DNA of 49,622 nt, taken from the IMG/VR virus record IMGVR_UViG_3300050015_001122, positions 1 through 49,622 of that record. One strand, 5' to 3'. The translations under genes were made by a program, and so were the position numbers. Positions within the stretch are counted from its first letter, which is position 1, and each line of letters opens with the position of its first letter. Shown here in pieces: positions 8,644 to 49,203 of the stretch. Source of the stretch: a virus. The notes under the pieces are model-generated. The model worked only from the letters and a program-made list of their open reading frames with translations. It searched no databases and was not told the DNA's origin.

Positions 8644-8717
8644 GGGGGAGTAGCTCAGTAGGCTAGAGCAACGCACTTTTAATGCGTAGGTCGAGGGTTC
8701 GAGCCCCTCCTCCCTCA
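8644..8717 (+). tRNA. trnK: tRNA-Lys (anticodon TTT), integration target
   Basis: A full cloverleaf can be drawn: acceptor GGGGGAG/CTCCCTC (one G-U pair), D stem GCTC/GAGC, anticodon stem ACGCA/TGCGT with loop CTTTTAA, T stem GAGGG/CCCTC with loop TTCGAGC, and discriminator A at 8717. CCA is not encoded. From 8673 onwards the sequence is shared with the distal copy at 49127, so the 3' half was supplied by the element and the 5' half by the host. Confidence 0.97.
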
Positions 8718-10324
8718 GTCCGGCAAGAGCCCGCAGAACGCGGGCTTTTGCCTTGTTTGCAGGGGTATTCTTCGCGAGCGGAGGCCCCGGCGTCAAGCCC
8801 GGGTTCTTCGCGCCTGTTATCGCCCGGAAGCACCTGGAAGCCTGTGCGCGCTTGCTCCGGCGCTTGCTCGCCGAAGGTGCCCGTCGCCCTCATCCTCGCC
8901 CGTTCCACCGAAGGCTCGTCGGGCAACAGCTTGGGCAACCGCTCCAGCGCGGACCGCTCATCGCCGGCCCCCAGGAACGTGTAGTTGTCGATGGTCAGCA
9001 TGATGGTGCTGTGCCGCGCGAGTATCTTGGCGACGGCAGGGGCAACCCCGGACCGTGCCAGCCGCGTAATGAACGTGCCCCGCAGGGCGTGGAAGTCGAT
9101 CACGCGCCCCGATGAATCCAGGTCGCGGAGGAAGTCAGAGCCGAACCGCTCGTAACACTCTTCGGCGGAGGCCGACTCCCTCAGCCAGGAATCCCGTGCC
9201 TGCGCCAGGTCCGCCTTGAGCATGTCGGCGGTACGTTCCGGCATTGGGAAGAGCCGCTCCGTCGCCGGCTTGCCGTCGATGAACCTGGCGACGGCCTCAG
9301 CGGTATCTCGTCGCATCGGTACAAGGTCGTCGCGCCTGTGCTTGGAGTAGGCCGCCGCCACTTTAACGGAGGCCGTGTCCAGGTCCGCCAGTTCAAAGCT
9401 CGCGGGCGTCAAGCTCGCAATCTCCGAAGCCCTCAGTCCCGTCGCCGCCGCGACCAGGTAGACCGTCCCGCGATCAGGGCCGTTCAGTGAGAACGGCACA
9501 AGCCGGTAGTCGTCACCGGGCTTGCCGTTGCCTTCCTGCCAAGACCACGCTGGTGCCAGCTTCGCCGCCGCGATCAGCCGCGCGAATTCGTCATCGGATA
9601 AGGCCCGGCGCCGGTGCCTCTTGTCGGCCTTGGTGTTCAGTTTCGGCACCTGGGCCAGCGGGTCCGTTCGCATCCGTTCCGTGCGAAAAAGCCATCGCGC
9701 GAAGCCCTTGATTGCGGTTAGGGCGTTGTTGATTGCCTCCGGTCCGTGCCCCGCCCGCTTCCGCTCGCCGGCGTAGGCCGACAACTTCCCGGCGTCTAAG
9801 TCCGCGATCTTGGCGAATCCGCACGCCGTAAGGACCGCCTGAATATACCGCGTGGTCAACCCGACGTGCTTCTCCGTTACACCTTTCCCGCGCAGATGGG
9901 CCACGAAGTCGCCCAGGTGCCCCGCGATCCTGCCTTCGGCGTCCAGTTCCACCAGCGCCACCCGCGCCCGCTCGGCCAGTTTCTCAGCCTTCGGGTCGAT
10001 CAGGCCCCGCCTCTTCTGCCAAGCGTCATCCTGGAGCTTGTCCCGAAGGGCCTGGGTCGCGTGGAGGTTCACGCATCCCTTGACAACGCGCACCCGCCCC
10101 GGTCCAAGGGTAACGCCGATGTAATACTCGCGAGTCTGGCCGACGATGATCTTTCGGCCCGGCTTGTTGTCCCGCGTCTTGGAAACGGGCGCGGTCCGGA
10201 CCTTGCCTGCCGCGTCGATCCATCGGGCTTGAAAGCTCGGCTTTCCGTCATCGCCGGTGCTCACGATGATCTCCGCGCCTTCGGGGATGTCCGCGTACAC
10301 TGGCCGTCGGAAGATCGTCGCCAT
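8663..10324 (-). CDS. int: Tyrosine recombinase / phage integrase (integrated-state form)
   Basis: A 553-residue site-specific recombinase. The catalytic set is visible: Arg in ATGLRASEI (about 297), Lys in YSKHRRDD (about 329), HALR (about 414), LARHS (about 437) and the nucleophile Tyr in DNYTF (about 448). An SAM-like core-binding domain lies at about 130-225. The C-terminal extension (about 480-553) runs through the attL core, and its stop lies in the host half of the tRNA, so the last residues are not the element's own. On the excised circle the same frame continues into 49126-48886 and gives 630 residues (1893 nt, exactly 631 codons). The ATG at 10324 follows the stop of the small HTH gene by 1 nt; both probably use the promoter at 10573-10600. 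Confidence 0.95.
   Translation of the reverse strand: MATIFRRPVYADIPEGAEIIVSTGDDGKPSFQARWIDAAGKVRTAPVSKTRDNKPGRKIIVGQTREYYIGVTLGPGRVRVVKGCVNLHATQALRDKLQDDAWQKRRGLIDPKAEKLAERARVALVELDAEGRIAGHLGDFVAHLRGKGVTEKHVGLTTRYIQAVLTACGFAKIADLDAGKLSAYAGERKRAGHGPEAINNALTAIKGFARWLFRTERMRTDPLAQVPKLNTKADKRHRRRALSDDEFARLIAAAKLAPAWSWQEGNGKPGDDYRLVPFSLNGPDRGTVYLVAAATGLRASEIASLTPASFELADLDTASVKVAAAYSKHRRDDLVPMRRDTAEAVARFIDGKPATERLFPMPERTADMLKADLAQARDSWLRESASAEECYERFGSDFLRDLDSSGRVIDFHALRGTFITRLARSGVAPAVAKILARHSTIMLTIDNYTFLGAGDERSALERLPKLLPDEPSVERARMRATGTFGEQAPEQARTGFQVLPGDNRREEPGLDAGASAREEYPCKQGKSPRSAGSCRTEGGGARTLDLRIKSALL
8673..8720. repeat. attL core, 48-bp direct repeat
   Basis: Identical over 48 bp to 49127-49174. 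It covers the anticodon stem-loop to the 3' end of tRNA-Lys plus three bases beyond. The flanking bases differ (C before and C after here; A before and A after in the other copy), which sets the limits exactly. It also encodes the penultimate part of the integrase on the minus strand. Confidence 0.97.
8722..8752 (+). terminator. Element-borne replacement terminator for tRNA-Lys
   Basis: GGCAAGAGCCCGC and GCGGGCTTTTGCC pair with one mismatch around a 5-nt loop and include a T4 run. It starts 5 nt after the tRNA. It replaces the host terminator that integration displaced to 49177. On the opposite strand the same bases encode integrase residues just upstream of the att core. Confidence 0.7.
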
Positions 10325-13775: not shown

Positions 13776-14011
13776 TGCCTCGGCTCCGTGCCCGCCAAGC
13801 CAGCGAGATACGCCTCCACGTCCCGAAGCCTCCACCGAACAGTCTTTGATGCCAAGCGAAGGGGGCGCGGGAAGCCCCCGCAAGGCATGCCCGCGTCGGC
13901 CTGTGCCGCCATACGCCAAATCGTGCCAGGATGGATTCTCAGCCGGGCCGATAGTTCCTTGCACGTCAAGAGGTCGATGTTTGTGACGGGGCCGGAGGCT
14001 TCACTTTGCAT
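13772..14011 (-). CDS. AlpA/excisionase-like winged HTH protein
   Basis: A 79-residue DNA-binding protein: DLLTCKELSARLRIHPGTIW is the MerR/AlpA-type helix-turn-helix, followed by the usual FPRPLRLASKTVRWRLRDVE wing and the final helix AYLAGL. AlpA-like proteins activate or act as excisionases for integrases of tRNA-integrated elements. It overlaps the genes on both sides by a few bases and belongs to the early operon that ends with the integrase. Confidence 0.85.
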   Translation of the reverse strand: MQSEASGPVTNIDLLTCKELSARLRIHPGTIWRMAAQADAGMPCGGFPRPLRLASKTVRWRLRDVEAYLAGLAGTEPRQ

Positions 14012-15263: not shown

Positions 15264-16403
15264 TCATCCCGCTTGAGAACGGCGCAGATGCTCCAAACCC
15301 TTTTCGGATACGACCCACACCCCACGTGAGGAATCGGACTTCAGCAAACCATTGCGAACCATGGAATAGCGAGCGAATTGCGACGTGTTCTCCCAACGAG
15401 GCTGCCCCGTGCTTGGCAGCGGCTCGCGATCATCCTGGGACAATACCCCGCCCATGATCTCCCCCACTCGTCGGACCACATCCGCAGTCCTGCCAGACCC
15501 TCCCAGTCCATCAAGAGCCTGGAGGATCGGCAGGTAGAAGGCCGTCTCGGGTGTGCGCAGTCCTCGCCTGAGCTTCCGTCTTCGCTCACCCGGTTCGTAA
15601 GTCTCCGCGACGGCTGGGGGCGGGACCTCCACGGGCACCGGCAAGCCGAGCGTATCGAATGCGGTCTTCGCATGGCTGTACGCCGCCGCCCGGTCGCCGC
15701 ACTCGCGTCCGTAGGCCCGGTACAGGTCGCGCCAGAGGGTCCGAAGGTAGACTTCGTAGCCTTTGACCGCCTTGAAGAGGTGGATCATCTCCTCCGGCAG
15801 GTCTAGCGCCCGAGCGCCTCGGGCGTGTGCGTGAACGATGAACATCCCTTCAGTCTCATTGCGCACGTCATGGCGGAAGCCGAAGTGAGATTCGACCACA
15901 TAACAGCCGTCGGCCAGTTGCCGAACGGCAATTTCCTCTTCCGGCAGTTCGACCGTGCGGACCGGTCCGATGTCGCCGTTGAGAAAGCCCTTCGGGAACG
16001 CCTGGGGACCGTCCGGCAAGACCGATGCGATGACCGGATCATCCACCTCGTCCGTCTGGCCCGTCAATGCCGCCCGGACGATCTGGAGAACCTTCTGCTT
16101 GGCGGCGATGGGCAAGTAGCCCCAAGCCTCGGACACGAAGGCCAGGTCCGGCGGCATCGTCTGCGGGACTTTCAACGCGGCTTCGGTGACAGCCGCGTAC
16201 ATCCCGTCCCCCAGGCGAACGAAGCGAGCGAGCTTGCCGCGGTGCATGATCTCCTGGTTGATGTCCCGGTTGATGGTGATCTCAGGCGTCTTGCCGTTGG
16301 TGAGCCAGAGCTTGGACTCAACAACTCGACGGGCGATCTCCATGTAATGCAGAGGTTCAGCCGCTTCCTGCAAGACCTTGTATGCCGCGTCAACGCAGTT
16401 CAT
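15264..16403 (-). CDS. HARE-HTH / shared domain / Mrr-N protein of the defence operon
   Basis: A 379-residue protein in three parts. Residues about 4-70 match the HARE-HTH domain (AAYKVLQEAAEPLHYMEIAR ... GKLARFVRLGDGMYA), a DNA-binding module often fused to restriction enzymes. Residues about 128-255 are the domain shared with the next two genes upstream (VLPDGPQAFPKGFLNG ... HFGFRHDVRN ... VKGYEVYLRTLW). Residues about 290-379 resemble the Mrr N-terminal winged helix (YLPILQALDGLGGSGRTADV ... GVWVVSEKGLEHL), but the Mrr nuclease core is absent. It is the last gene of the operon. I chose the ATG at 16403 (GGGGTGA 6 nt upstream) over the GTG at 16406. A role in DNA recognition is inferred. 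Confidence 0.75.
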   Translation of the reverse strand: MNCVDAAYKVLQEAAEPLHYMEIARRVVESKLWLTNGKTPEITINRDINQEIMHRGKLARFVRLGDGMYAAVTEAALKVPQTMPPDLAFVSEAWGYLPIAAKQKVLQIVRAALTGQTDEVDDPVIASVLPDGPQAFPKGFLNGDIGPVRTVELPEEEIAVRQLADGCYVVESHFGFRHDVRNETEGMFIVHAHARGARALDLPEEMIHLFKAVKGYEVYLRTLWRDLYRAYGRECGDRAAAYSHAKTAFDTLGLPVPVEVPPPAVAETYEPGERRRKLRRGLRTPETAFYLPILQALDGLGGSGRTADVVRRVGEIMGGVLSQDDREPLPSTGQPRWENTSQFARYSMVRNGLLKSDSSRGVWVVSEKGLEHLRRSQAG

Positions 16404-16421
16404 CACGTCTCACCCCGTAGC

Positions 16422-17372
16422 TCATTCCACCCAAGGTAGCCCATGGGATTTGAAGACCTCTTTGGTCTGGTGCTCAGCCATGGGTCGGTGACCACTCTTG
16501 CGCTCGTAGGCTTGCAGCAGCGCGTGTCGGAGGTCGCGAAGGTAGTTCTCATAAGCCTTCACCGCCCGGAAAATCTCGATCATCTCCGTTGGTATCGAAA
16601 CCGTCCGATGGCCGCGGAGGAAGGCGTAGTAAACGAAGTTCCCCTCCGCGGGATTTCGCACGTCGTGGCGGAAGCCGAAGTCCGACTGTACGGCGTGCCC
16701 GCCGCCGGGGATCGCCACGACGGAGACCGGCTCGGCTGGCAACTCTAGCTTCACCGCCTTCTTGCCGCCCAGGAACTCGCCAGGGAAGTCTTTCGGGCCT
16801 TCGGGTAACAACTCCTGGAGTACGGAATCTCCGCTTGGCTTCTTGTCCGTGCCGGCTTTCTCGGCCTGCTGGACCCAGCCTGGCCGGGCTTCGGGGAAAA
16901 GGACCGGCTGCGACTTCGCTGTCCCGCCCAACTGCCGAGCCTGCGTCTCCAAGATGCCGATGAACTCGGGCAACTTGTCCCAGGCGAAGCGGACGCCTTT
17001 CTTCGTCGGGCCGGTGTAGTTCTCGGCGTCCACGTACTCACGAACGTCCACGCTAGGCAGGGACTTGAGGTCGTCAGGTGGAATCACGCTGACAATGATG
17101 TCGGTATCGCCGCCCTTGTGGACCTTGGCGAACTGCTTGTTCTCCGCGCCCGGCACTTCCGCCCTGAGGCGGGTGAGAACTTCGATGACCGACATCAGCA
17201 CGTCGCCGCCCATGACCAAGCCGGCCTTTGTCGGCCCTTCGTACTTCGCACCAGAGACGAACTTGCGAACGTGGGCAAGCATCCGTCCCTTCCACGGCCG
17301 AACCGAGAAGACCAAGCTCGTGGAACGAGTCAGTTGAATCGACCCGACTACGTTGTCTGCTTCATCAGCCAT
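16422..17372 (-). CDS. Double-PC4 protein with the shared defence domain
   Basis: A 316-residue protein. Two PC4-like single-strand-DNA-binding repeats are visible: SLVFSVRPWKGRMLAHVRKF ... YEGPTKAGLVMGGDVL (about 18-62), and SVDVREYVDAENYTGPTKKG ... FAWDKLPEFI (about 108-140). After a linker, residues about 188-316 are the shared domain (LLPEGPKDFPGEFLGG ... DFGFRHDVRNPAEGNFVYYA ... VKAYENYLRDLRHALLQAYE). PC4 proteins bind ssDNA, so this subunit may sense or hold unwound DNA for the methyltransferase-HerA complex; that is inference. It is 13 nt from the HEPN-ATPase stop and 18 nt before the next start, so it is in the operon. Confidence 0.75.
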   Translation of the reverse strand: MADEADNVVGSIQLTRSTSLVFSVRPWKGRMLAHVRKFVSGAKYEGPTKAGLVMGGDVLMSVIEVLTRLRAEVPGAENKQFAKVHKGGDTDIIVSVIPPDDLKSLPSVDVREYVDAENYTGPTKKGVRFAWDKLPEFIGILETQARQLGGTAKSQPVLFPEARPGWVQQAEKAGTDKKPSGDSVLQELLPEGPKDFPGEFLGGKKAVKLELPAEPVSVVAIPGGGHAVQSDFGFRHDVRNPAEGNFVYYAFLRGHRTVSIPTEMIEIFRAVKAYENYLRDLRHALLQAYERKSGHRPMAEHQTKEVFKSHGLPWVE

Positions 17373-17385
17373 AATGCTCGCCCCG

Positions 17386-18978
17386 TCACTCCTTGCCCAA
17401 ATCTATGGGTCCTGCTGCGCCCGCAGGGGCATCGCGACCATCACGCCGGCCGCCATAGATGATGACATCGGTGCGCATTCGCTCTAGCGTTCGCGTCAGG
17501 TCTTCCATGTCCTGAAACCCGACGTTCCGCAGATGCGCTACCTGATTCCGCAATCGTCGTACCCTCGCTACGCCTTCCCGCCAGTTGTCGATCAAGTCTT
17601 GTGGCTCTGACGCGGATCTGAATCGCGGTTCCTTTCTTTGCTTCTTGGCGGAGTCGTCATTAAGTCGCGGGAATACGTCATCCTTCAGCCAGAGGACGAG
17701 TTGACCAAGCTGGTCAACGGTCAGGTAGTCGATGCACTGGATGTGCGGCGAGCCGTCGCCAGAAACGCCGTCCTGCCGCATCATGTGCATTGCCGTCTCC
17801 CACACGGAGTGGGCCTTCTTAAACACATCGCGCTGCTCGGATATGATCTTGACAAGATTCTGCCGGGCTTCCTCAGTACAGCTCTCTCGTGACCATTTCA
17901 TAATTGCCCGATTCAGGTCTTCGTCAATTACCTCGCCCGGTTGCTGCATCGTCTCAAGGCGTGTTTTCGCAACATCCGCGCCGATCCGCGCGAACACGGA
18001 CGCGAGCACCTGCCGCAGCATCGTCTCGGTGTCCTGGAGCAGCGCCGCGGCGCGCTCGTTCGCGGCGCGGCGGAAGAGCAACTCGGGCTGGACCGACTCG
18101 TCGAGCAGGAATCGCACGACCAGGTTGCGAAGCTGGTAGAAGCCGGGAAGCAGGTTGGGGATGATGAAACCGTCGAGGCAGAGCCTGCGCAGGCCGTCAT
18201 CGACCTCCTCGATCAACTCGGCTCGCAGGCATTGCGGCTTGCCGCCAAAGCGGATCAGCGCAAGGGTTGTCTCGCAACTCGACGGCAAGGCGCTCAGGCG
18301 AGTGCGGTAGGCGTCAACCGTATCGTCGTCCTTGAGCCATTCCTGTACGCGGTCCCACACGCTTTCGTCGTAGAGCCGGTCGCTCCAGTCGCCGTGCAGG
18401 TAGTCGGTAGCGCTCTTGGCCAGCGCAAGGTCCGTTCCGCACAGGTCGAGCATGAGGTACAGCACCGCATCACCCCAACGGCAACCTCGTTCGCCGGCGA
18501 TGGCGACGTAAACGGCCAACAGATCGTCCCGAGTCAACATCGGGAACGAAACGTGAGCGCTCGGCACTGAGCAGAGCTTCACGCCGAGTTGCCGGTCGGC
18601 ACTCCGAACGTCCAAGTTGCCGCACCAGAGGCATAGGTCCCCGGTCGTGGTTACGCTCTCTGTTGTCGATGCCAGGAGCCTCCGGTAGTCCTCGGGGGCG
18701 AGCCGGCCGGTATGGTCCAGGACGACCACCTGTCGGGCAGTGCCAACGGTTCGCGCCGCGGCGAGTTCGCGCGACAATTCCGTCATGCCCTTGGTCTGGG
18801 CATCAAAGCGGTGGATCGCGAAGCCGCCGCCGACGAGCTTGGCTACCAGGTCAGCCACGAACGTCGTCATGCCGCAACCGGGGCTGCCGACCAGCGCCGT
18901 GTGATGGCCCTGCCGGAGGTGATCGAGCACCCGCTCACTGACGCGATCGAGGGATGAGATGTGAACAGCGGTGCCCAT
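17386..18978 (-). CDS. P-loop ATPase with C-terminal HEPN/Swt1-like domain
   Basis: A 530-residue protein. The N-terminus has an AAA-type P-loop at residues 31-39, GSPGCGMTT, in which the Walker-A lysine is replaced by Met37. QVVVLDHTG (about 88-96) is the Walker-B-like strand. The C-terminal 130 residues are helical and contain RNQVAH at about 477-482, the R-x4-H signature of HEPN ribonucleases, preceded by a basic run, as in Swt1-like HEPN domains. In other defence systems HEPN domains cut RNA when a sensor ATPase is triggered, so an abortive-infection effector is a reasonable inference. Its ATG follows the methyltransferase stop with no gap. Confidence 0.75.
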   Translation of the reverse strand: MGTAVHISSLDRVSERVLDHLRQGHHTALVGSPGCGMTTFVADLVAKLVGGGFAIHRFDAQTKGMTELSRELAAARTVGTARQVVVLDHTGRLAPEDYRRLLASTTESVTTTGDLCLWCGNLDVRSADRQLGVKLCSVPSAHVSFPMLTRDDLLAVYVAIAGERGCRWGDAVLYLMLDLCGTDLALAKSATDYLHGDWSDRLYDESVWDRVQEWLKDDDTVDAYRTRLSALPSSCETTLALIRFGGKPQCLRAELIEEVDDGLRRLCLDGFIIPNLLPGFYQLRNLVVRFLLDESVQPELLFRRAANERAAALLQDTETMLRQVLASVFARIGADVAKTRLETMQQPGEVIDEDLNRAIMKWSRESCTEEARQNLVKIISEQRDVFKKAHSVWETAMHMMRQDGVSGDGSPHIQCIDYLTVDQLGQLVLWLKDDVFPRLNDDSAKKQRKEPRFRSASEPQDLIDNWREGVARVRRLRNQVAHLRNVGFQDMEDLTRTLERMRTDVIIYGGRRDGRDAPAGAAGPIDLGKE

Positions 18979-21900
18979 TCATCCCTCCACGGTGGTTAGG
19001 TGGAAACGGTCGAAAGCCGATTGGGTGAGCCGCGCCGCGGTGCGTGTGTCCAGCGTTCGGCGGTAGTAGGCGTCGTAGAGCTGCTTGCGGAGTTCGCGCA
19101 GGTAGTTCTCGTAGTTGGCGACGGTTCGGGTGATTTCGACGGTCTGGTTGGGAAGCTCGGCCGTGCGATGGCCGTTCCGCTGGGCGTAGAGTAAGAACTT
19201 GCCCTCAGCGGGGGTTTTCACGTTGCGGCTGTACGTCCCGTCGGCGGTGTGAACGCCGAGTAACAGCGGGCTGTTGTCGAAACTCAACGGCGCTTCGGGC
19301 AGGTCGATGGCCGTCTTGTTTCCGCCGGCGGCGGCGCCTGAGAAGAAGTCATCGGGAAAGCGCCGGGGACCGTCGGGCAGAATCTCGTCAAGGACTTCCT
19401 CGGCCGCCTTCTTCTCGGCCTTCCCGCCCCGCGTCTTGGTCTTTCGGGCCTTGCTCCGCATCTGGCCCAACTGAACCCTCTCGCGGACCAACTCGCACAG
19501 GCCCTCGTAGACCGCCTTCAGGTACTTCTTCGGGTCTAGGCCAACGGCTTTCAGGACTGCCGTATCCAGTGCCACGCGATCCGCTTTGGCGATCTCATGG
19601 CCCACAGATTCAATCGGCCGGGCAACCAGTTTATGAAAGGCATCCAGGACTCGCTTCGCGTCCGCATTCGAGAACTTGCGGACATCTGGGACCACGAGGT
19701 GGTCACGAAGATCATCGTAATCGACCTCCAGCACGCCGTCACCTTTGACTGTGCGCCCGACCAGTTCTGCCGACGCTGCAACGAAGGAACTGTTCAGCAC
19801 TGCGATCAGCAGCTTCCAAGGAACGCCTTTCTTGGGTAGGACGACATGGAGGCGCTTGTCTGCAATGACAGGCGTTTCCGAGTATTTATGCAAATGCCGG
19901 TCCCCCAGCGCGTTCGTAAGGAAGATCCTGGCCTCAGGACTCTCGTTTTCTGGAAGTGCATACCAGCCCGGCTTTCTGTCACGCACCCAGCGCCACTCCG
20001 GGTACAGTATTCCATGCTTCCTCTGCGTCTTGCCCCATGCAATGTAGGACAGCGCACCGACCTTCCCTGACTTTCGCAGCGCGTCCTCCGTTTCGCGGCA
20101 GACGAAGACCCACAGCGGCAATTCCTTCGGTGATATGCGAATCGTCTTGGTGTCGCCGGGCGACTTCAAGACTGGACGAAGGAACTCTGGCTCAATCCCA
20201 AAGCGTTCCGCGTCCTGATGCGATACATGATAGAAGTCATTGAGGTGGGTCTTGCTCCCACGCTTGAAGGTTGCTTGATGGGCCAAGCCGATTGAGACAT
20301 TCGTTGCTTGCTCGAATGCTCGACGCAAAGGCTCGGGGATGCGCAGGTTTCTGCCCCACTTGACAGTTTTGCCTTCACCCTGCACCTCAGCCAGCATATC
20401 GCTCTGGCGCAGGATGCGGATGCGGAAGTCGTCGTTCTCCTCCGTGACCATGCCCAAAGGGTGCGTCTTGGAGTCTTTCCGCCCGGCCTGCTCCACGCGC
20501 GTCACCAGAGCGCGCATTCGCTCCCATCTTGGCGCGGCGTCCACAACCGGATCGCCTGGGATCAGTTCCGTCAACGGCCGCTTGACCTTGACGAACTTGG
20601 CCAGGTGCTCGTCCCGCTCTTTGGCGTCGTCGCAACGCTCCAGGATCGTCACCACGGTGTTGACCGACGCCTCCGTGAACCAGGGTTCGCAGCGGCTCTC
20701 CAGCACGGCCACAATCTTGAAGTGCCGCAGGAAGAACTTCTGGAGTTCATGCCCGTAGTTCACGTCCAGCCAGGCGTTCGATGTTACGATCCCCATTCGC
20801 CCGCCAGGTTTGAGGAAACGTGCCGCGTGGAAAAACAGGTGAATGTAGAGGTCAGCGGAGCCGGAAACTCGGTGTTGCACATCCGCCTTATCACATCCTC
20901 CGTGTTTACCCTTGGCGATCAGCGTCTGGAAATGCTCCTGCTCCTTGCGGCCCTTGTAGTAGAAGAGCTGTGGGTAGGCGTCAAACCATCCGTCGATGAG
21001 TCTCTGCCGCAGGAACTCCAGGTAGCCCGCCTCGTGCTTCTCGATCTGGTCGGCGCTGATGTAGGGGAAGTTCCCCACAATGGCGTCGAACATCGGGATG
21101 GCTTCTTCAATCGTCTCCGGGCGCTCCATGTCCATCTTCGGCGGCGGGAACGGGAATCGGTCGCCCGGGTTGATCCTGAAGAAGTCCTTGCAGATGATCC
21201 GGGGGAAGTTCCCATGTTCGGCGATCCGCTGCCGGAACAGGTTGATGGTGGCCAGCTCCGCCGGAAACGGAGCAATATCCACGCCCCAGAGCTGCGACAG
21301 CAGCGTAGTGTGATCTGTCTGTCCCAGCCATCGCAGCCGGTCGTAGCCACGAATCAACAATGTCCCTGTGCCGCACGTGAAGTCAGCCACCTTGTCGGCC
21401 GGCGACCGGACGCAGAAGGCCGTAGTCAGGTCGCACAAGTTCTCCTCGGTGAAATACTGCCCCAGATCATGTCGCTCTTCCGGCGGGATCAGCCGCTCGA
21501 ACACGATGCCCACAACGTCCTGGGGCAAGGCGGCGAAGTCGCGGGTGCTGAAGTCCTGAATTAGGTCCGCCAGCGTATGGGACGCCTCGGCCGGCCATTG
21601 GATGCGGTCGGGCAGTGCCTCATCGAAGACGGCGTGGTAGTCGATCTTGCGGGCTTCGGCGAAAGCGGCGCGGAGCTTCGGCAGAACTTGGGCGGTATCG
21701 ACGCCCGCGAAGTCGAGCTTGGGAAGGTGCCGGGCCGAGCGGCGCAGGCTCTGATAGAAGAGCATCTTGCCCAGCAGGCGGTAGATGATCTGCCGGGCGA
21801 TGGACTGGGCGAACTCCGGGTCGGCGGGGTCGCCGGCGATTGCCTGCTTGACGGCCCAGGCGGTGAGTTCATCGCGGAAGATCACGTCGCCGCCGAGCCG

Positions 21901-22479
21901 GTCATGCAGGGAGCGTGCGACCATCGGCAGCAAGTGCTGCACGGCGTCGAGCAGCCGGTTGACGAAGTAGGTCGCGTCGATCTCGACGAGTTCCAGGGCC
22001 TCGTCCTTCAGCAGTCGCTCCAGGTCGTGGAGGATTTCGTCGCCGCGAGCGAGGACCTTGAGTTGCGTCAGCTCGTCGAGGGGGCCTTGCTCGGCTTTGC
22101 CGATTTCGTAGAGGTCCGGGTAGTTGCGGAGCTTCTCCAGCGAGTCGCGTGCGGCTGGCGTGCCGGGCTTGGGCGTGCGCCAGAGGATGGCGTCGCGCAG
22201 CGTCCAAGTGACGAAGTAAGGGGCCTTGTGCGCCCGAGCGCGGCGGGCGACGAATTCCAGGAGGGCCGTGTCGTCGGCTGCGTGGGACGGGGCGGTCATC
22301 AGGACGACGGCGAGCGGCTCGTCCGATCCGTCGTGCCGGCCGCAAATCAGAACCGTGTACCAAGGCGCGGCCGAAGCTTCGTCGGCGGGCTGGACCTTCT
22401 CGGCGCGAAGCGTTGCGTTCGGGTCGGCCGGCAGCTTTTCGACGAACCTTCGGAATAGCTTGGCAACGGTTTCTTGCAC
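18979..22479 (-). CDS. Large N6-adenine DNA methyltransferase with shared C-terminal domain
   Basis: A 1166-residue protein, GTG start at 22479, 2 nt after the preceding stop. Residues about 1-330 resemble the N-terminal region of type I/IIG restriction-modification proteins. The methyltransferase core has GQYFTEENL (about 343), the AdoMet motif ADFTCGTGTLL (about 365-375) and motif IV as GNFPY (about 468-472), where NPPY is usual. A TRD-like region follows (LLIAVLNSSFVAASAELVG, about 880-900). The last 130 residues are the shared domain (EILPDGPRRFPDDFFSG ... VANYENYLRELRKQLYDAYY). It lacks a recognised PD-(D/E)xK motif. It probably marks self DNA for the operon. AdoMet-dependent N6-adenine methylation is known for the family; the target sequence is unknown. 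Confidence 0.88.
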   Translation of the reverse strand: MQETVAKLFRRFVEKLPADPNATLRAEKVQPADEASAAPWYTVLICGRHDGSDEPLAVVLMTAPSHAADDTALLEFVARRARAHKAPYFVTWTLRDAILWRTPKPGTPAARDSLEKLRNYPDLYEIGKAEQGPLDELTQLKVLARGDEILHDLERLLKDEALELVEIDATYFVNRLLDAVQHLLPMVARSLHDRLGGDVIFRDELTAWAVKQAIAGDPADPEFAQSIARQIIYRLLGKMLFYQSLRRSARHLPKLDFAGVDTAQVLPKLRAAFAEARKIDYHAVFDEALPDRIQWPAEASHTLADLIQDFSTRDFAALPQDVVGIVFERLIPPEERHDLGQYFTEENLCDLTTAFCVRSPADKVADFTCGTGTLLIRGYDRLRWLGQTDHTTLLSQLWGVDIAPFPAELATINLFRQRIAEHGNFPRIICKDFFRINPGDRFPFPPPKMDMERPETIEEAIPMFDAIVGNFPYISADQIEKHEAGYLEFLRQRLIDGWFDAYPQLFYYKGRKEQEHFQTLIAKGKHGGCDKADVQHRVSGSADLYIHLFFHAARFLKPGGRMGIVTSNAWLDVNYGHELQKFFLRHFKIVAVLESRCEPWFTEASVNTVVTILERCDDAKERDEHLAKFVKVKRPLTELIPGDPVVDAAPRWERMRALVTRVEQAGRKDSKTHPLGMVTEENDDFRIRILRQSDMLAEVQGEGKTVKWGRNLRIPEPLRRAFEQATNVSIGLAHQATFKRGSKTHLNDFYHVSHQDAERFGIEPEFLRPVLKSPGDTKTIRISPKELPLWVFVCRETEDALRKSGKVGALSYIAWGKTQRKHGILYPEWRWVRDRKPGWYALPENESPEARIFLTNALGDRHLHKYSETPVIADKRLHVVLPKKGVPWKLLIAVLNSSFVAASAELVGRTVKGDGVLEVDYDDLRDHLVVPDVRKFSNADAKRVLDAFHKLVARPIESVGHEIAKADRVALDTAVLKAVGLDPKKYLKAVYEGLCELVRERVQLGQMRSKARKTKTRGGKAEKKAAEEVLDEILPDGPRRFPDDFFSGAAAGGNKTAIDLPEAPLSFDNSPLLLGVHTADGTYSRNVKTPAEGKFLLYAQRNGHRTAELPNQTVEITRTVANYENYLRELRKQLYDAYYRRTLDTRTAARLTQSAFDRFHLTTVEG

Positions 22480-22481
22480 GG

Positions 22482-23720
22482 TTACACCCCAGGCGCGCGC
22501 TTGAGGAACTTCACGTAGGCCAGCGTCCCCATGCGGTCCACCGTGAAGCGAACAAAGTTCGGGTCCTGCTTCTGAAGCTCTTGGAGCCACTTCAGAGTGC
22601 GGCTCAGTTCGAGGATGCGCTTCTGCTCGGTGAGCAGGCGGGCGCCGGCCAACAGGCCGACATCGGTTATGGGCGTGTAGCCGAGGGAACTCTTGAGGGC
22701 CTCGCCGGCTCGGGCTAGAGCCTCAGTCGCTTCGCTTTCGCTGGCGAGCTGGGCATCGATGCCGCGACAGGCGGCAAACGCGGTGAAGAAGCCTTCCTGG
22801 AGTAACTTGTCGCTATCGGCGAACTTACCGCTATGCTCGACCAGGGCGTGCGCGGCCTTAGTTGTCTGGTAGGCGTATTTCTCCCTGGATGGCTTGGAGA
22901 GCAGGCCGAGGTCGCAGTACGGCTCCAGACGCACGCGGATCGCTTCCTCGCGCGCGCCGCTGCCGGTGTAGGGCTTGCCTTTCCACTTGGCTACGTTGAC
23001 AGCGATCTTTCCGAGCATGGAAAGCCGTTCCCTTTCCGCCGCGGGCAAGCTTCTCTTACCATGAGTGGCCACGACCTCGCGAAGAATGTCGGGCAAGAAG
23101 TCGCCAGCGAACCGCTCATCGAAGGTTTTCTCGGCCTGCTTGACGAGCGACCGCAGCAGCGGCAAGGACACCTCTGCGTCGTTGTCCAACAGGCAGTAGA
23201 GCAGCACGGCGGCTTGGTTGTCGTTGATCTTCAGCGGATTGTGTCCCCGATCTCGTTCGCCAAAGGCTGCGATCTCCTCCTTCGGCGTAACCGCAAGGAG
23301 CACCAGACTCCGCGTCAGGGCCGAATACGTGCCCTTCTTGACGATTTCCAGGGACGTGCCGAGGTAAGGATATTTCCTCCAGTCGTCTTGGACGAGCTTG
23401 CCGGTGCTGGACGGCAAGGACCTGTCGGAGAGATAAACATCCTGGAGTTCCACGCCGGCAGGCCCGGCGTTATCCATGATGGTCTTGCGGAGTTCCCTGT
23501 ACGCGCCATCTGTGAGGCGCGTCTTGGCGTACTCCTTGAGGTCTTCATCGAAAGGCGGGGAGAGTCGGACGCGCTGCGTGAGTCGCGTAATCAATCGCTT
23601 GCCGAGAGTTTCGAGATTGCTGGTCTCATTCTCATTGACGATCGCAGCGAGGGCCTTGAGATAGCCCAATCGCTGCATCGTGCGGTTGGCGGAGTCTAGA
23701 ACCCTGATTCGGCCGGCCAT
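22482..23720 (-). CDS. Unknown protein of the defence operon
   Basis: A 412-residue, mostly helical protein with no motif that I recognise. The start is the ATG at 23720, which overlaps the stop of the HerA-like gene by one base (TGATG); an in-frame TTG lies at 23723. Its stop is 2 nt before the methyltransferase GTG. Features: a basic N-terminus (GRIRVLDSANRTMQRLGYLK), a conserved-looking segment HNPLKINDNQAAVLLYCLLD (about 165-185), and a final helix ending FTVDRMGTLAYVKFLKRAPG. Its fixed place between an ATPase and a methyltransferase suggests a structural or specificity subunit; no enzymatic role can be given. Confidence 0.7.
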   Translation of the reverse strand: MAGRIRVLDSANRTMQRLGYLKALAAIVNENETSNLETLGKRLITRLTQRVRLSPPFDEDLKEYAKTRLTDGAYRELRKTIMDNAGPAGVELQDVYLSDRSLPSSTGKLVQDDWRKYPYLGTSLEIVKKGTYSALTRSLVLLAVTPKEEIAAFGERDRGHNPLKINDNQAAVLLYCLLDNDAEVSLPLLRSLVKQAEKTFDERFAGDFLPDILREVVATHGKRSLPAAERERLSMLGKIAVNVAKWKGKPYTGSGAREEAIRVRLEPYCDLGLLSKPSREKYAYQTTKAAHALVEHSGKFADSDKLLQEGFFTAFAACRGIDAQLASESEATEALARAGEALKSSLGYTPITDVGLLAGARLLTEQKRILELSRTLKWLQELQKQDPNFVRFTVDRMGTLAYVKFLKRAPGV

Positions 23721-25099
23721 CAAAAGCCTCCATGCACGCTGATCCGTGGCCTGACATCCATGATGAAGGCCCGGTCGGTTTCCGTGTTGGACACGAGGGC
23801 CTGCCCCACGTCGAGGCTGCGGATAATCTGGTCAAAGCTCAGCGTCGAATTGCCGTAAGTGACTTCGTCGGGGAGGTTCGACTTGATGTTCTTTCGGATG
23901 TAGTCGATGTCACCCTGGACGGTGAGCTTGTGAACGAGCAGCGTGTCCACCTGTGCCAGGATCCGAGGGTCGATGGCGGTGGGTTGCTGGGTGGCAACCA
24001 CAAACGATAGGCCGTAGTTGCGGCCTTCGCGGACGTACTTGACGATTACATCCGTGGCCGACGTTCGCCGCTCGGATGGCAAGATGTTCTGGGCTTCGTC
24101 GATGGCCACCCATGTCTGCGGCGCGGCCGTGGCCGAGACCTGCTCCAGCGCCTGCCTCTCCTGCGGCGAGAGCTTCTCTATGATCTTGAGGTGTTTTTCG
24201 GCCTCGGACGCCTGGATACGAGACGCAATCAGCCGTCGCATCAGCGCGGAGACAACGATCAGCCGGAGTTCATCGGACATCTTGTTCATCACGATGACGC
24301 TCATCCGTCCCGGCTTAAGGAAATCCCGAAGCGCGGTGCCCTTGTCCTCAAAGAGCGGGTTGCGATGGTATGTGGTCAACTGTTGAAGGACCGCCCGACG
24401 GGTCTCATCGTGATATGTGTCCAATAGCTCTAGGTCACTCTTGACGCAAGCGATCAAGTCGTTGATCGAATACTGGACGCTGGGTTGGTGTCGCCTCTGG
24501 CTGTCACTCCATCCCTCCTGCGTAACCTTGATGTACGCATCGTTGAGAAGCTGGCCCATCCGGTCCTGATAGATGTCCAGGCCGAAGAGGTAGCCCCAGT
24601 CCTCTGCGGCAAAGTCGGAGCAGTTGATTGTGAACTCCTGATGGTCCGCCGGCGTTCCGGCCGTTCGTGTTCCTTTCGGAATCCAGACGGCCACGTCGAG
24701 CGGCTCGGCCTTGATGGACCAGCCGCGACGCACCGCGAACTGCTCTTTGAGAAGCGCCTTCTTGGCATCCTCATGGAGCAGGATGCTCATCCACTGAAAC
24801 ACGCCGAGCGTGTCGAACAGCAGGATCGCGGAGTTGCCAGGGTTTGCGGCGATGCTGGAGTCGGCCTTGGACGTGCATAGCCCTTCCAAGAGCGTGCCCA
24901 GGGTGTAGGACTTCCCCGACCCTCGCTTCCCGAACAGAGCTACCACATGAGCCATATCAGTGTCGAACCGCACATCCGTAAGCGGGCCTGCCTCCCCCAG
25001 CCGGCCTAGGTAGACCCACGCCTTGCTCTCATAGTTGTGTGTGCCGGCATATCCGGGATTCGACCGGAAGACCCGCGGCTTCGTGGTGAACTTCTTCAT
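23720..25099 (-). CDS. HerA/FtsK-type ATPase of the defence operon
   Basis: A 459-residue pumping ATPase of the HerA/DUF87 kind. It has Walker A at about 57-64 (GKRGSGKS), Walker B in TWVAIDEAQNILPSE (about 330-345), then the sensor strand SFVVATQQPTAIDPRIL and the HerA-like Arg-containing helix. HerA proteins form hexamers that translocate DNA and often work with a nuclease; here the partner could be the PLD protein two genes upstream. GGAG lies 7 nt before the ATG at 25099. It overlaps the next gene by one base, so equal expression is expected. Confidence 0.85.
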   Translation of the reverse strand: MKKFTTKPRVFRSNPGYAGTHNYESKAWVYLGRLGEAGPLTDVRFDTDMAHVVALFGKRGSGKSYTLGTLLEGLCTSKADSSIAANPGNSAILLFDTLGVFQWMSILLHEDAKKALLKEQFAVRRGWSIKAEPLDVAVWIPKGTRTAGTPADHQEFTINCSDFAAEDWGYLFGLDIYQDRMGQLLNDAYIKVTQEGWSDSQRRHQPSVQYSINDLIACVKSDLELLDTYHDETRRAVLQQLTTYHRNPLFEDKGTALRDFLKPGRMSVIVMNKMSDELRLIVVSALMRRLIASRIQASEAEKHLKIIEKLSPQERQALEQVSATAAPQTWVAIDEAQNILPSERRTSATDVIVKYVREGRNYGLSFVVATQQPTAIDPRILAQVDTLLVHKLTVQGDIDYIRKNIKSNLPDEVTYGNSTLSFDQIIRSLDVGQALVSNTETDRAFIMDVRPRISVHGGF

Positions 25100-25115
25100 G
25101 GTCGTTCTCCAGGCG

Positions 25116-26273
25116 TCAGCCGAAGATAATCGGCGCTATCGCGTTGACGATCTCGTCGTCGATCACCTTCTTCTCCGAATCCCAAGCAGCGATCGCGCAC
25201 TCGTTGATTGTGCGGATGATGTTGCGTGGCGTGGACTTGATTACGTCTTGACACGCATAGTCGCACATCAAGTCGAAGGCGGCCGCCGTGAACGGGTAGG
25301 TGTCCTTGGTGGATGGCAACGTATCCGCCTGAATTCGCCTTTCGGCTTCTTCCTGGATGACCAAGTGGCTGAGCATCTCTCGGACGAACTGTTGGACGTT
25401 CGCGGGCGCGGCCAGCGTCTCAAGCTCGATCAGGTTGTGCGCACTTATCCGCGAGATGACATCTTGCCTGACAAGAACACGAGGTGCGTCATCTCGCGTG
25501 TCCGCTTTGAAACCAATGACGAAGCCGATTGATGAGTTGGCGTTATCCGCGAGCTTACGGATGTACTGATGCCACGATTCGGCAGCGTCGCCCTCGCGGA
25601 CGTTCTGAAGCTCTTCCATCTCATCAATAAAGAAGATTAGGCGAACGCCGACAGATATGGCCAAGTTGCCGCACGCTTGAAGAGCATTGACTAGATCGCC
25701 GACACCCACCTCTCCCAAACTGCGAGTGACCTTGATCTGCTGTAGTTCTTTTGAGGCGAGCTTCTGACCGCTTAGCCATCTCCATGCGGCAAATGCCTCA
25801 TCACCGCCACCTCGCAGAAATCCAAAAGCCTGAATCACATTGGGGTCGTCGGTAAGCTGGGACAGAGCCTTCGGAAAATCCTGAGACTTGCTGAAGAGCG
25901 AATCTACCCATTGCTGAACCACCTTCATACCAAGCGCTTCCATGTTCTGAAGATGCCACTGCGCAGCGATGGACTTGCTCTGCATCTCGATGTCCAAATG
26001 GACCGTGTGCGGTTTTCCCTTACAGGACTGAGGGGGCGTGTGGCTCAGCCAGTACGCAAGGTAGTGGAGCGTCTGGGTCTTACCGCAGCCATACGGTCCA
26101 TAGACCATCATTTTGGGCACCTGTGGGTCGATGAATGCCCGCTTGATCTGACTTCTCATGCGATCATCAAGCTGGGCGCGGCCGAAGTAGAACCGTGCAT
26201 CGGACGGGTTGATCTTCGGGTCAATCGTGAAGCTCTCGCGATCCCTCAGACAGAACCAGTTCTTGAATTCCAT
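25116..26273 (-). CDS. AAA+ ATPase of the defence operon
   Basis: A 385-residue AAA+ protein. Walker A is at 59-66 (GPYGCGKT) and Walker B in LIFFIDEMEEL (about 216-226), and a C-terminal helical region resembles ORC/Cdc6 or Tn7 TnsC-type switches (TPRNIIRTINECAI). AGGA lies 7 nt before the ATG at 26273, which is why that start is preferred over the in-frame ATG six bases upstream. The start lies 28 nt inside the PLD gene. ATPases of this kind in defence loci act as DNA-bound sensors or loaders; the specific role is inferred. Confidence 0.8.
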   Translation of the reverse strand: MEFKNWFCLRDRESFTIDPKINPSDARFYFGRAQLDDRMRSQIKRAFIDPQVPKMMVYGPYGCGKTQTLHYLAYWLSHTPPQSCKGKPHTVHLDIEMQSKSIAAQWHLQNMEALGMKVVQQWVDSLFSKSQDFPKALSQLTDDPNVIQAFGFLRGGGDEAFAAWRWLSGQKLASKELQQIKVTRSLGEVGVGDLVNALQACGNLAISVGVRLIFFIDEMEELQNVREGDAAESWHQYIRKLADNANSSIGFVIGFKADTRDDAPRVLVRQDVISRISAHNLIELETLAAPANVQQFVREMLSHLVIQEEAERRIQADTLPSTKDTYPFTAAAFDLMCDYACQDVIKSTPRNIIRTINECAIAAWDSEKKVIDDEIVNAIAPIIFG

Positions 26274-26803
26274 GACCATTTCCTTTCCGCTGTGATGCGT
26301 TGAACGAGTTTGCTTTCCTGGAGAGTCCGAAGCTGCCCATTGGCCCAATAGCTAAGCTCGTGCAAGAGTGTTCGCCCGATCCCTTCGCCGTATAGCATCA
26401 TCGCCACTTCAATGTTGGCTTGGAACGATGCCGCCGTCAGGTTTCCAGAGCCGAAAAGGGCGAAGGAGTCGGCTTCCCGGCTCGCCATGGCAACGTACAC
26501 CTTGGCGTGGATCGAAGCGTTGTAACGGACTTCGATCCAGGGGGAGCCAAGAAGAACGGTCATCGCCTCCGCCTGGTACTCCTCGGTCGGTTGGCGCGTC
26601 GTGACGTAAGTGCAGATGCGCTCTCGCTCCACCTTGCGCCGCAGGTCCGTTAGCGTGAAGCGGCATCCCGCAAGCGAGGAGATGAAGGGGGATACGATGG
26701 AGAGTGACCGCAGGTCCGCGTCGCGAAGGAAAAGGCGCAGCAAAAACTGCTCGACCGGGCGGTCGGTCATCAGCCGGATATGCCGCGTGCTTTCCTGGCC
26801 CAT
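26246..26803 (-). CDS. Phospholipase-D-like nuclease-family protein
   Basis: A 185-residue protein with one HKD motif: SIHAKVYVA (His99, Lys101) followed by LFGSGNLT (Gly118-Asn121). Single-motif PLD proteins form dimers that make one active site, and include bacterial nucleases such as Nuc and the DrmC subunit of DISARM. It is the first enzyme gene of the defence operon, 60 nt after a small HTH gene. The start at 26803 is uncertain by two codons (the ATG at 26809 is also in frame); the Shine-Dalgarno sequence is weak in both cases. A DNA-cutting role in the system is a family-based inference. Confidence 0.82.
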   Translation of the reverse strand: MGQESTRHIRLMTDRPVEQFLLRLFLRDADLRSLSIVSPFISSLAGCRFTLTDLRRKVERERICTYVTTRQPTEEYQAEAMTVLLGSPWIEVRYNASIHAKVYVAMASREADSFALFGSGNLTAASFQANIEVAMMLYGEGIGRTLLHELSYWANGQLRTLQESKLVQRITAERKWSWNSRTGSV

Positions 26804-41832: not shown

Positions 41833-43185
41833 TCACTTGACCCAACGGGCCTTGGGCGTCCCGGTCCCCCCGAGAACAATCGAATCGATGCCGCTGGTGA
41901 TCCGGAGGTCCTCATGAATGGCCGTGCCGGATGTCAGTGAAAGGCTCTGCGCAACGAGCGCCCCGCACAGTTGGAAGCCCGTCGTCACGTTGATGGGGGC
42001 GTTGGGTGAGATCACCACTCCGTACAGGCTGCCTCCGCCCATAAGTGTGACGGGCGTCGTTCCCACGTTGTAGAGGGTCAGGCGGTCCAGGTTCTGCCCG
42101 TCCACGACGTTGGCGGCCCCCGTGTTGATGGTGATACCGCCCTGGCAGTACACCTTGAGCGAGGAATTGGGTAGGACCTCCAGGTTGGCGCCCGTGTTGA
42201 CCGTGAAAGCACCATCCGTCACCACGACCACGTTTCCGCTGATCTTGAGCTTGCCGCCGGTGCCTACGCTGAGGCTGGCCACGTGAAGGCTCTGGCTGAG
42301 GGTGTTGGTACTGCCGGTCGCATAGGACACCGCCGCTTGGGTCGCGCCCAGGTTGGGAACGGTAATGGTCGGCATGGGCACAGTCGCCGACATGGTCGTC
42401 GTGGTACCGGTGTAGGTGCCGCCCATGCTGATACTCACGGTTTTGGTGACGTCCGTGCCGGGGCCTGCGGCCACCAAACCGTTGAGGTAGGACCACGTTC
42501 CGATGGAAACCGCCCCGGCCTGGGTTGAATCCGTCACCACATGCGCATTGGAGCCGGAGTTGCCCGATCCATAGGGGCCCAGGGTGGAATCAAAGGAATC
42601 GATCGTGGCCCCGGGGCTCATAGAACTCGGCCTGGGCTCCATGCTGATTGATACGGCGGTGGCCACGATGACCCCGGAACTGATCGTTGAGCCCGAGGGC
42701 GTCACGACCGCCTGGGACGCCCAGTTGGCTTCCTTGAAAGTGCCGACGGCCGTCAGCGTCAGCGACTGGGTCGGGTCGGCCGTGAAGCTGCCGTTGCCCA
42801 CGACGATGCCGCTTCCATTGGGGTCCTGCCCCGCCTGGCCGATGACGGTGAAGACCCCGCCACCGAAGGAGACGTTCTGGCCCCAGGTGCCGGGCGTCTT
42901 GGCCGTCTTCCAGTTGGCGTCCGAGCCCACATACGCCAGGGCCATCTCCAGCCCCGACTCGGCGATCATCCGGGCCTGCGTGCGGTTGGAAAGGTTTCGA
43001 GCCAACTGAACCGAGACCGCTTGCTGGGCCATGTACCCGCCGCTGAGGACGAACACCATGGCCACGACGGCCAGCACCAGTACCAGGGCGATGCCGCGAC
43101 GGTTGCTTGCCATGCGCATGTTGGCGGGAACCCAGGGCTTTCGGCACATGTGTCTTCTCGTTTTCTGTCTGAGTTCATCGGTCAT
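41833..43185 (-). CDS. PilX-like pilin / polymer-forming accessory protein
   Basis: A 450-residue protein. Residues about 25-55 form a pilin-like N-terminal helix after a short basic leader (RRGIALVLVLAVVAMVFVLS), and LARNLSNRTQARMIAESGLE follows, as in PilX/type IV minor pilins. The C-terminal half is a regular beta pattern (about 300-445; LKISGNVVVVTDGAFTVNTG, LYGVVISPNAPINVTTGF), like the DUF7305 polymer-like domain of such proteins. This is a cell-surface gene type, not a virion protein. It lies alone between the zinc-ribbon gene and the late promoter, so it looks like a moron (accessory cargo). AGGA lies 6 nt before the ATG at 43185. Confidence 0.75.
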   Translation of the reverse strand: MTDELRQKTRRHMCRKPWVPANMRMASNRRGIALVLVLAVVAMVFVLSGGYMAQQAVSVQLARNLSNRTQARMIAESGLEMALAYVGSDANWKTAKTPGTWGQNVSFGGGVFTVIGQAGQDPNGSGIVVGNGSFTADPTQSLTLTAVGTFKEANWASQAVVTPSGSTISSGVIVATAVSISMEPRPSSMSPGATIDSFDSTLGPYGSGNSGSNAHVVTDSTQAGAVSIGTWSYLNGLVAAGPGTDVTKTVSISMGGTYTGTTTTMSATVPMPTITVPNLGATQAAVSYATGSTNTLSQSLHVASLSVGTGGKLKISGNVVVVTDGAFTVNTGANLEVLPNSSLKVYCQGGITINTGAANVVDGQNLDRLTLYNVGTTPVTLMGGGSLYGVVISPNAPINVTTGFQLCGALVAQSLSLTSGTAIHEDLRITSGIDSIVLGGTGTPKARWVK

Positions 43186-47802: not shown

Positions 47803-48291
47803 TCACCCGATCGGGAACTGGTGCCCGCACTTGGGGCAACGGATGGTTTCGGCGGCATCCCCTGCGTCGGCCGCGCCGTCTTCCAGGCCCGTATCGAACT
47901 CGCGCAGGTACTCAGCCAGTTCCTTGTCAATGAAGCCCAGCAGCTTCAGGTCCGCGCCGCCCTCCCGCAGTTCGCCCAACTCGATGGGCAGGAGGTCGAT
48001 GTCCCACTCGGAGTTTTCCGCGACTCTGTTGTCGGCGATGCGGTAGGCCCGTGCCTGCTCGGGCGTCAGGTCCGCGGCGACGTGGACGGGCACGGTCTTG
48101 AGCTTCAGAAGGAGCGCCGCCTTGTACCTGGTGTGGCCGACGACGATCACGCCGTCCTTGTCCACCACGATGGGCTGCCGGAAGCCGAACTCCTGGATGG
48201 ACTTCGCCACGGCCTCCACGGCCTTGTCATTCCGGCGGGGGTTTCCGGGGTAGGGCTTCACCCGCTCGATGTCCCATTCTTCAATTTTCAT
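47803..48291 (-). CDS. ParB-like protein with C-terminal zinc knuckle
   Basis: A 162-residue protein with a ParB/Srx domain: VKPYPGNPRRNDKAVEAVAK, FGFRQPIVVDKDGVIVVGHT, RYKAALLL, AYRIADNRVAENSEWD. It ends with CPKCGHQF. Phages often carry such ParB-like proteins beside the terminase, sometimes joined to methyltransferases; no methyltransferase is joined here. The ATG at 48291 overlaps the upstream stop (ATGA). Confidence 0.85.
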   Translation of the reverse strand: MKIEEWDIERVKPYPGNPRRNDKAVEAVAKSIQEFGFRQPIVVDKDGVIVVGHTRYKAALLLKLKTVPVHVAADLTPEQARAYRIADNRVAENSEWDIDLLPIELGELREGGADLKLLGFIDKELAEYLREFDTGLEDGAADAGDAAETIRCPKCGHQFPIG

Positions 48292-48578
48292 GCTTGGCCT
48301 CCCGGTGTGCTCGCGGACGTATCTGTGATCTTCACCCACTCAAGCCGCACCTGGCCGCGGACAGGCGGACGACGCTTGCCTGGATTCTCCTCGCACCAGC
48401 GACACATCCCGGGCGTCACCTCGCGGCCGAAACCCTTGGCCACGATGGCGCACTCGCTGTAGCCTGGACACCACCGTTTGGCACGCTTGGCCTTGCCGCC
48501 GGCCAGGGGCAGGCCGACGATCTTGGTCCCGGCGGGCAGGTAGTACCGACCTGGCCGATCTAATCGTGGTAACTTCAT
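48288..48578 (-). CDS. Small Cys-containing hypothetical protein
   Basis: A 96-residue basic protein with four Cys in two groups (WCPGYSEC ... MCRWC), possibly a zinc site. AAGG lies about 10 nt before the ATG. It overlaps both neighbours by ATGA junctions, so it belongs to the packaging operon. No family was recognised. Confidence 0.6.
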   Translation of the reverse strand: MKLPRLDRPGRYYLPAGTKIVGLPLAGGKAKRAKRWCPGYSECAIVAKGFGREVTPGMCRWCEENPGKRRPPVRGQVRLEWVKITDTSASTPGGQA

Positions 48579-48889
48579 AGTTCACTTGCCTTTATGCCCC
48601 CGCGCGTGCGCTGGGGGAGAAAAAAACCCTTTCGGCCCCCGTTCCCGCCACGGCCGCCGTCGCCGGACCGGCCGGTAGGACCCGCGGACGGCCAAGCCGC
48701 CTCGCCGCGGTCGATGCCATGGCCCTCACGCCTCGTGGACCGTCGGAGGCGTCCGCGTCGAACCGCGGGCCGCGCAGAAGGCCGGCGGGGGTGCGTGGCG
48801 CGTGGTCGCATGGAGTGATCCCCCCTCCGCTCATGGCCGTTGCTCGGCGTCCGGCGACTGGTCCTGAGGATTGTGACGGCGCCGTTCAT
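48575..48889 (-). CDS. Possible Arg/Gly-rich protein coupled to the integrase tail
   Basis: A 104-residue frame with ATGA overlaps at both ends: with the integrase C-terminal extension (stop at 48886) and with the next gene (start at 48578). The protein is Arg/Gly-rich with no fold signature, and another frame (48592-48834) is also open, so the overlaps are the main support. Confidence 0.35.
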   Translation of the reverse strand: MNGAVTILRTSRRTPSNGHERRGDHSMRPRATHPRRPSARPAVRRGRLRRSTRREGHGIDRGEAAWPSAGPTGRSGDGGRGGNGGRKGFFLPQRTRGGIKASEL

Positions 48890-49126
48890 CGGCCACCCTC
48901 CGCTTGGCCGCTGGCCGCCTTGACCATCGCCACGATTCCGGCCCGTAGCGCTTCCGGCAGGATCGTCCACAAGGCGATCACGTCGGCAAGGCGGGGGTCG
49001 GCGGAGGGGGCCGAAGCCCCGCGATTCTGCCCCTGGAGGGTTTTGCGCGCTTGCACCGGCGCTTGCTTGGATGCGTCGGCTTGCGGCAAGTCTTGAGAGC
49101 TGCACCCTTTGCGATTTCCCGGCAGA
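48886..49126 (-). other. int: Displaced 3' end of the integrase gene (78 codons)
   Basis: In the frame that enters from the att core (KSAL), this stretch encodes 78 further residues and a stop at 48886. The last half is protein-like: LADVIALWTILPEALRAGIV and AMVKAASGQ resemble the helical end of phage integrases from related bacteria, as I recall them. In the integrated state it has no start and is separated from the rest of the integrase by 40 kb. On the circle it joins in frame. Confidence 0.85.
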
Positions 49127-49174
49127 GCACTTTTAATGCGTAGGTCGAGGGTTCGAGCCCCTCCTCCCTCAGTC
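49127..49174. repeat. attR core, 48-bp direct repeat
   Basis: Identical to 8673-8720. Only the 3' half of the tRNA sequence is present and the bases to its left do not rebuild a tRNA, so this is the displaced host copy and not a second tRNA gene. Confidence 0.97.
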
Positions 49175-49176
49175 AA

Positions 49177-49203
49177 GGAAAGCCGCCTCAACGGCGGCTT
49201 TCC
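49177..49203 (+). terminator. Original host terminator of tRNA-Lys
   Basis: GGAAAGCCGCC and GGCGGCTTTCC form a perfect 11-bp stem right after attR. Before integration this followed the tRNA. The 49204-49407 stretch behind it has no gene that I can support. Confidence 0.75.

Follow-up and report, generated by a model that had tools for sequence, protein, structure and literature searches.

An attachment site inside the integrase gene of a prophage, and a conserved C-terminal tail left at the far end of the element

The window, that is the whole stretch of 49,622 nucleotides analysed (IMG/VR virus record IMGVR_UViG_3300050015_001122), carries a prophage bounded by an exact 48-bp repeat at 8673-8720 and 49127-49174, which represents the 3' part of a tRNA-Lys gene. 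The repeat had been claimed by the first-pass annotation of this DNA and is exact at both ends; the position 49126 given in that annotation is one base off from the true start at 49127. With an intact tRNA at one end, a tRNA fragment at the other and an integrase gene between them, the prophage has the organization of an integrative element that targets tDNA. The features are as follows.

8644..8717, plus strand: tRNA-Lys(TTT), the attachment target, intact and reconstituted at attL; int runs antisense through its 3' part
8663..10324, minus strand: int, integrated (attL) form, a tyrosine recombinase of 553 residues; stop codon within the tRNA-Lys gene
8673..8720, no strand: attL core, 48 bp, starting at the anticodon stem-loop and reaching slightly beyond the tRNA 3' end
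8722..8752, plus strand: terminator-like hairpin, phage-borne, directly downstream of the restored tRNA-Lys; the opposite strand codes for int
8845..8868, minus strand: putative arm-type tandem repeat AGCAAGCGCCGGAGCAAGCGCGCA, body side, within the int coding sequence; match reached by 0/100 shuffles
8981..9433, minus strand: codons of the Int catalytic residues R298, K328, H412, R415, H438 and Y448, all upstream of the crossover
48886..49126, minus strand: int tail, 78 residues and a stop, continuous with int only in the circular state (attP)
48898..48996, minus strand: conserved two-helix hairpin of the tail, RLADVIALWTILPEALRAGIVAMVKAASG; AlphaFold pLDDT about 90, profile match in nine phages or elements
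49044..49067, minus strand: matching putative arm-type tandem repeat AGCAAGCGCCGGTGCAAGCGCGCA, tail side, within the tail coding sequence
49127..49174, no strand: attR core, the identical 48 bp, a 3' fragment of tRNA-Lys

Exact scans of viral and genome contigs with the att core gave no match. At the far end of the prophage, a host hairpin at 49179-49202 has apparently been displaced by the phage hairpin at 8722-8752, and a similar arrangement was observed in another element (L067). Judging from similar integrases, the host group may be Planctomycetota.

Every phage gene with a family match between 8721 and 49126 lies on the minus strand, so that int precedes the terminase-side genes on the circle and is parted from them by integration. 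Two proteins with a ParB_N domain are encoded at opposite prophage ends (12327-13964 and 47803-48339). The region 15264-26348 (minus strand) encodes an Mrr_N/HARE-HTH protein, a PC4-like protein, a 1203-aa N6-methyltransferase (PADLOC type IIG, mad2 matches), a HerA-like ATPase (mad8 match) and a BrxC/D-like ATPase; this set resembles pieces of MADS or BREX and is probably a phage-borne defence cluster.

Joining of 10324-8673 to 49126-48886, as in the circular form, gives 1893 nt, corresponding to 630 residues and a stop, compared with 553 residues in the integrated form. The two proteins have 552 residues in common, followed by 78 residues of its own in the longer form and a single one in the shorter. 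These values, including the confinement of the difference to the last 78 residues, had been given by the first-pass annotation and were reproduced upon recomputation. The catalytic domain was recognized at residues 289-449 (PF00589, E=3.5e-10, above the cutoff), identifying the protein as a tyrosine recombinase; the six catalytic residues are unchanged in the alignment with the integrase of a related contig (L033), and four of them, H412, R415, H438 and Y448, form invariant columns across six integrases. Since all the catalytic residues are located upstream of the crossover, both the 553- and the 630-residue forms should, as far as their sequences tell, be catalytically complete. The attachment site is thus within int and the C-terminus is replaced downstream of the catalytic tyrosine, the layout known from Myxococcus xanthus phage Mx8 (see below). 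An integrase broken in the manner of the archaeal SSV type was rejected, because the whole catalytic domain remains on the attL side. The linker flanking the att core is predicted by AlphaFold to be disordered, which fits a DNA segment selected as a recombination site.

No relatives were found when the int protein alone was used as the query against viral and genome contigs. With the phage terminase as the query, a total of 42 related contigs were obtained. One of these, L033, carries a single uninterrupted int ORF that matches residues 64-630 of the joined Int (38% identity, E about 1e-102) and stops at nearly the same place, ending W..LP.AL.AGIVAMVKAS...EGG. This ORF holds, in antisense, a segment that looks like the 3' part of a tRNA-Arg(TCT); the anticodons of this and the other tRNA fragments were assigned by eye, and the Rfam tRNA match is below the threshold, as expected for a fragment. 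Ends of the attR type, with the tail following a tRNA fragment, were identified in L063 and in L013 (terminase 79% identical over the matched part), the latter having at its right end a tRNA-Leu-like 3' fragment in the same frame and then the tail. An uninterrupted int with a tail is present in L067, of which the integrase body shows only marginal similarity to the others.

Two further contigs are decisive, one with both ends of an integrated prophage and one that is probably circular. In G005, a second integrated prophage with both ends present, the core is 23 bp long (121-143 and 42642-42664) and its left copy forms the terminus of a gene recognized as tmRNA (Rfam RF00023, 64.8 bits); the integrase has 469 residues in the integrated form, the last ones encoded by tmRNA, and 515 when the tail is joined, the frame being kept across the core. 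The 9200-bp contig G007 (the same as L064 below) has a 99-bp direct terminal repeat (1-99 and 9102-9200), the usual mark of a circular molecule, and hence is probably circular; its int frame runs through the repeat and over the contig ends into the tail, a total of 580 codons from stop to stop. Within the repeat is a tRNA-like stretch, which scores 26.4 bits with Rfam and falls short of the gathering score. In this attP, unlike in the other sites, it is apparently the 5' part of a tRNA that is present, in the sense orientation. The claim of the first-pass annotation that attP lies inside int and that integration replaces the C-terminus is thus borne out by the frames in the window, G005, G007, L033 and L067.

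The tail follows the consensus LAxVxxxWxxLPxxIRAxI, the conserved tryptophan being W604 of the 630-residue Int. In the AlphaFold model two helices, with confidence near 90, are formed within the last 36 residues of the 630-residue Int, and a similar terminal hairpin with lower confidence was predicted for the L033 enzyme. Foldseek comparison of the tail with PDB gave no match, and the tail ORFs belong to no family of Pfam or PHROGs. For the search of additional tails, a degenerate DNA pattern was made from the tail alone, without tRNA information, and was checked beforehand on known loci; this pattern uncovered tails in L059, L060, L062, L063, L064 and L067. Matches in L049, L058, L061, L066 and L068 were dropped as due to chance once the frames were read (L049 looks like a tape measure protein). 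A profile of nine tail sequences, searched against 12,718 ORFs, matched its members with E-values of 1e-16 to 1e-19, optimistic because the same nine sequences built the profile, and the next matches were near 1e-3. A tRNA or tmRNA fragment is located upstream of the tail in eight of these nine cases, although the integrase bodies diverge strongly. The one exception is L059, where no fragment was detected; L060 has 417 nt between fragment and tail, and a stop interrupts the frame of the tail there. The ratio dN/dS of tail plus linker, calculated for L059 against L063, was only 0.58, which weighs against the switch proposed below. The predicted hairpin and its presence at the C-termini of related integrases agree with the helical, conserved extension described in the first-pass annotation. 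That annotation had staked its reading on a circular junction that keeps the frame and on homologues of the extension: no frame-breaking junction was encountered, and homologues were found. The integrases of L051, L052 and L045 end soon after the catalytic domain without a tail, indicating that recombination does not generally require one.

Some other observations were made on the tail sequences. In L060 (13172-13700), the first frame after the tmRNA-like fragment reads RRRESNPRP...NPLAALARKWDRFSPEVQAALQALAAVL, similar to a variant tail, and a standard second tail follows downstream; the double tail possibly represents tandem attachment sites or remnants. L059 (1228-1812) and L063 (235-633) are related phage ends, of which the DNA is 86% identical from L059 1580 and L063 401 onward, and the DNA upstream of the shared end is unrelated; L059, without a clear tRNA, may be an off-target integration. 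Residues about 85-114 of the HARE-HTH/Mrr_N protein in the window (15264-16406), MPPDLAFVSEAWGYLPIAAKQKVLQIVRAA, match the tail profile weakly (E=6e-4), and the tail hairpin may, judging from this resemblance, be a general module of DNA-binding proteins.

The core in the window is flanked by the repeat AGCAAGCGCCGG[A/T]GCAAGCGCGCA, present in the body linker (8845-8868) and in the tail linker (49044-49067), the AGCAAGCGC repeats being candidate arm sites. Different tandem repeats in the same layout were detected on both sides of the core in G005 (GTCAGCAYATTGTCAGCA, match reached by 1/100 shuffles), G007 (TTAGCATCGCATTTAGCACC, 0/100) and L067 (CGGTGCAGAATCCGGTGCAG, 0/100); the flanking repeats of L033 were not significant by the simple shuffle test (10/100 reach the match). 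Since tandem repeats thus flank the core in four of the five attP sites, nearly the whole attP is located inside the int coding sequence. These repeats are interpreted as putative arm-type sites for the integrase.

The principle of an att site inside int, with exchange of the C-terminus, has been known since 1996 from the Int of phage Mx8 (Tojo 1996; Magrini 1999; PMC6070905, PMC4701971, PMC4383910). Integration of Mx8 reportedly exchanges 112 C-terminal residues for 13 and thereby yields an enzyme of lower activity (PMC4701971; PMC6070905). Mx8 and the phage in the window have in common that attP lies within the coding sequence of a tyrosine integrase and that the C-terminus is swapped on integration, leaving an active enzyme in Mx8 and one with its catalytic residues in the window; moreover, by our own reading of the Mx8 protein, both reading frames seem to cross an antisense tRNA segment. 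Nevertheless, Mx8 Int showed no similarity to the family described here, either in the body or in the tail (best BLASTP score 16 bits; no match by the family and tail profiles). Homology to Mx8 Int beyond the general recombinase fold was thus not detected, so that the activity reported for Mx8 is transferred by analogy. Different from Mx8, the tail in the window is a module common to several integrase bodies and several targets, and the coding sequence visibly contains matching repeats of the putative arm type. The suggestion of the first-pass annotation that directionality needs no other regulator is unsupported, as an excisionase is annotated in the precedent Mx8.

Integrases extending across attP are also known for SSV (PMC4383910) and for the streptococcal ICEs in rumA, in which att is inside the integrase gene and the excised element encodes a different C-terminus (PMC4701971); the latter differ from the window in using a serine integrase and a protein gene as the target. 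In the archaeal 'suicidal' integrases of the SSV type, att is likewise inside the gene, but there the split leaves the N-terminal part and the catalytic domain on different pieces, so that the enzyme is broken (PMC8371274), whereas the catalytic domain in the window stays whole. Integrases that disrupt their own gene have been called exclusive to archaea (PMC8371274). In the integration-dependent immunity of mycobacteriophage BPs, integration alters the product of the gene holding attP (PMC4557955); that gene encodes the repressor, while in the window it is the integrase that is altered. A conserved tail module across different integrase bodies and targets, with arm repeats in the coding sequence, was not found in the literature consulted. 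The new elements are therefore the conserved modular tail and the embedded arm repeats, the C-terminal swap itself being already known.

Taken together, the split of int, the continuous frame, the conservation of the tail, the repeats on both sides, the intact catalytic residues and the recurrence in related elements make it rather likely that a switch of the Mx8 type operates here, in which the circle encodes the 630-residue enzyme and the lysogen a tail-less, catalytically complete 553-residue form with presumably altered activity. The attP of this temperate phage would consist of the tRNA-Lys core and at least one pair of arm-type repeats on each side, in the 3' part of int. In the circle-encoded enzyme, the N-terminal domain and the catalytic domain would be followed by a long linker, disordered and with attP as its DNA, and then by the C-terminal hairpin tail. 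Recombination with the host tRNA-Lys would move the tail to the far prophage end (attR), leaving the 553-residue enzyme at attL. The 630-residue form is presumably proficient in integration and, by analogy with Mx8, loss of the tail would lower or change the activity of Int in the lysogen; integration would then limit its own reversal until prophage induction and stabilize lysogeny, as reported for Mx8. The tail probably acts via protein-protein contacts, by which integrase subunits bind each other or an accessory protein.

Alternatively, int and attP might be packed into a compact cassette simply because they are inherited together, the tail being tolerated and the two forms of Int being alike. 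For archaeal integrases, compact int-att modules have indeed been proposed to favour exchange (PMC8371274), and both the tail-less homologues and the wholeness of the catalytic residues in either form agree with such packing. The hairpin is, however, kept across bodies that are barely similar (L067 against the others), across different tRNA targets and across different frames through the tRNA, and during such divergence a tail without function would be expected to disappear or to acquire frameshifts; we consider this explanation unlikely. It is less probable still that the swap affects stability, the tail stabilizing Int or its tRNA-encoded replacement destabilizing it, so that the Int of the lysogen is short-lived with unaltered catalysis. 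Stability signals are often located at a C-terminus, and one to a few dozen non-native residues do replace the tail in the 553-residue form and in the integrated form of G005, but inspection by eye revealed no ssrA-like or other known degron in any tail (ends EGGR, GGQQ, EAKR, GSDA, DTDG, EAAK and EGNR) or replacement C-terminus, and an ssrA-like degron was accordingly rejected. A chance open frame in GC-rich DNA, with a tail that is no protein, is hardly credible: when the adjoining DNA was simulated with an order-1 Markov model, 77 codons in a fixed frame remained free of stops in 24% of cases, making the open frame by itself weak evidence, and the codon-position GC of the tail is only weakly gene-like, but the 38% identity with an uninterrupted homologue, extending to the final residues, and the profile common to nine phages or elements contradict chance, and by these homologues, from which the significance comes, the tail is judged to be genuine protein-coding sequence.

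Returning to the Mx8-type switch, a wider generalization is possible and is put forward tentatively. The W-LP hairpin tail beyond attP might be a modular and systematic feature of a wide range of phages and small elements, serving as a built-in directionality device in which the tailed enzyme integrates and the tail-less enzyme re-excises poorly, and might be exchanged independently of the target and the catalytic body.

When tyrosine integrases commit to integration, this is usually attributed to excisionases, which are proteins of their own. If the switch is true, recombination would physically take away a conserved tail and thereby limit itself in a simple manner. It would also explain integrase ORFs that end in tRNA-derived residues and small orphan ORFs at prophage ends, and such split int ORFs would affect the annotation of mobile-element boundaries.
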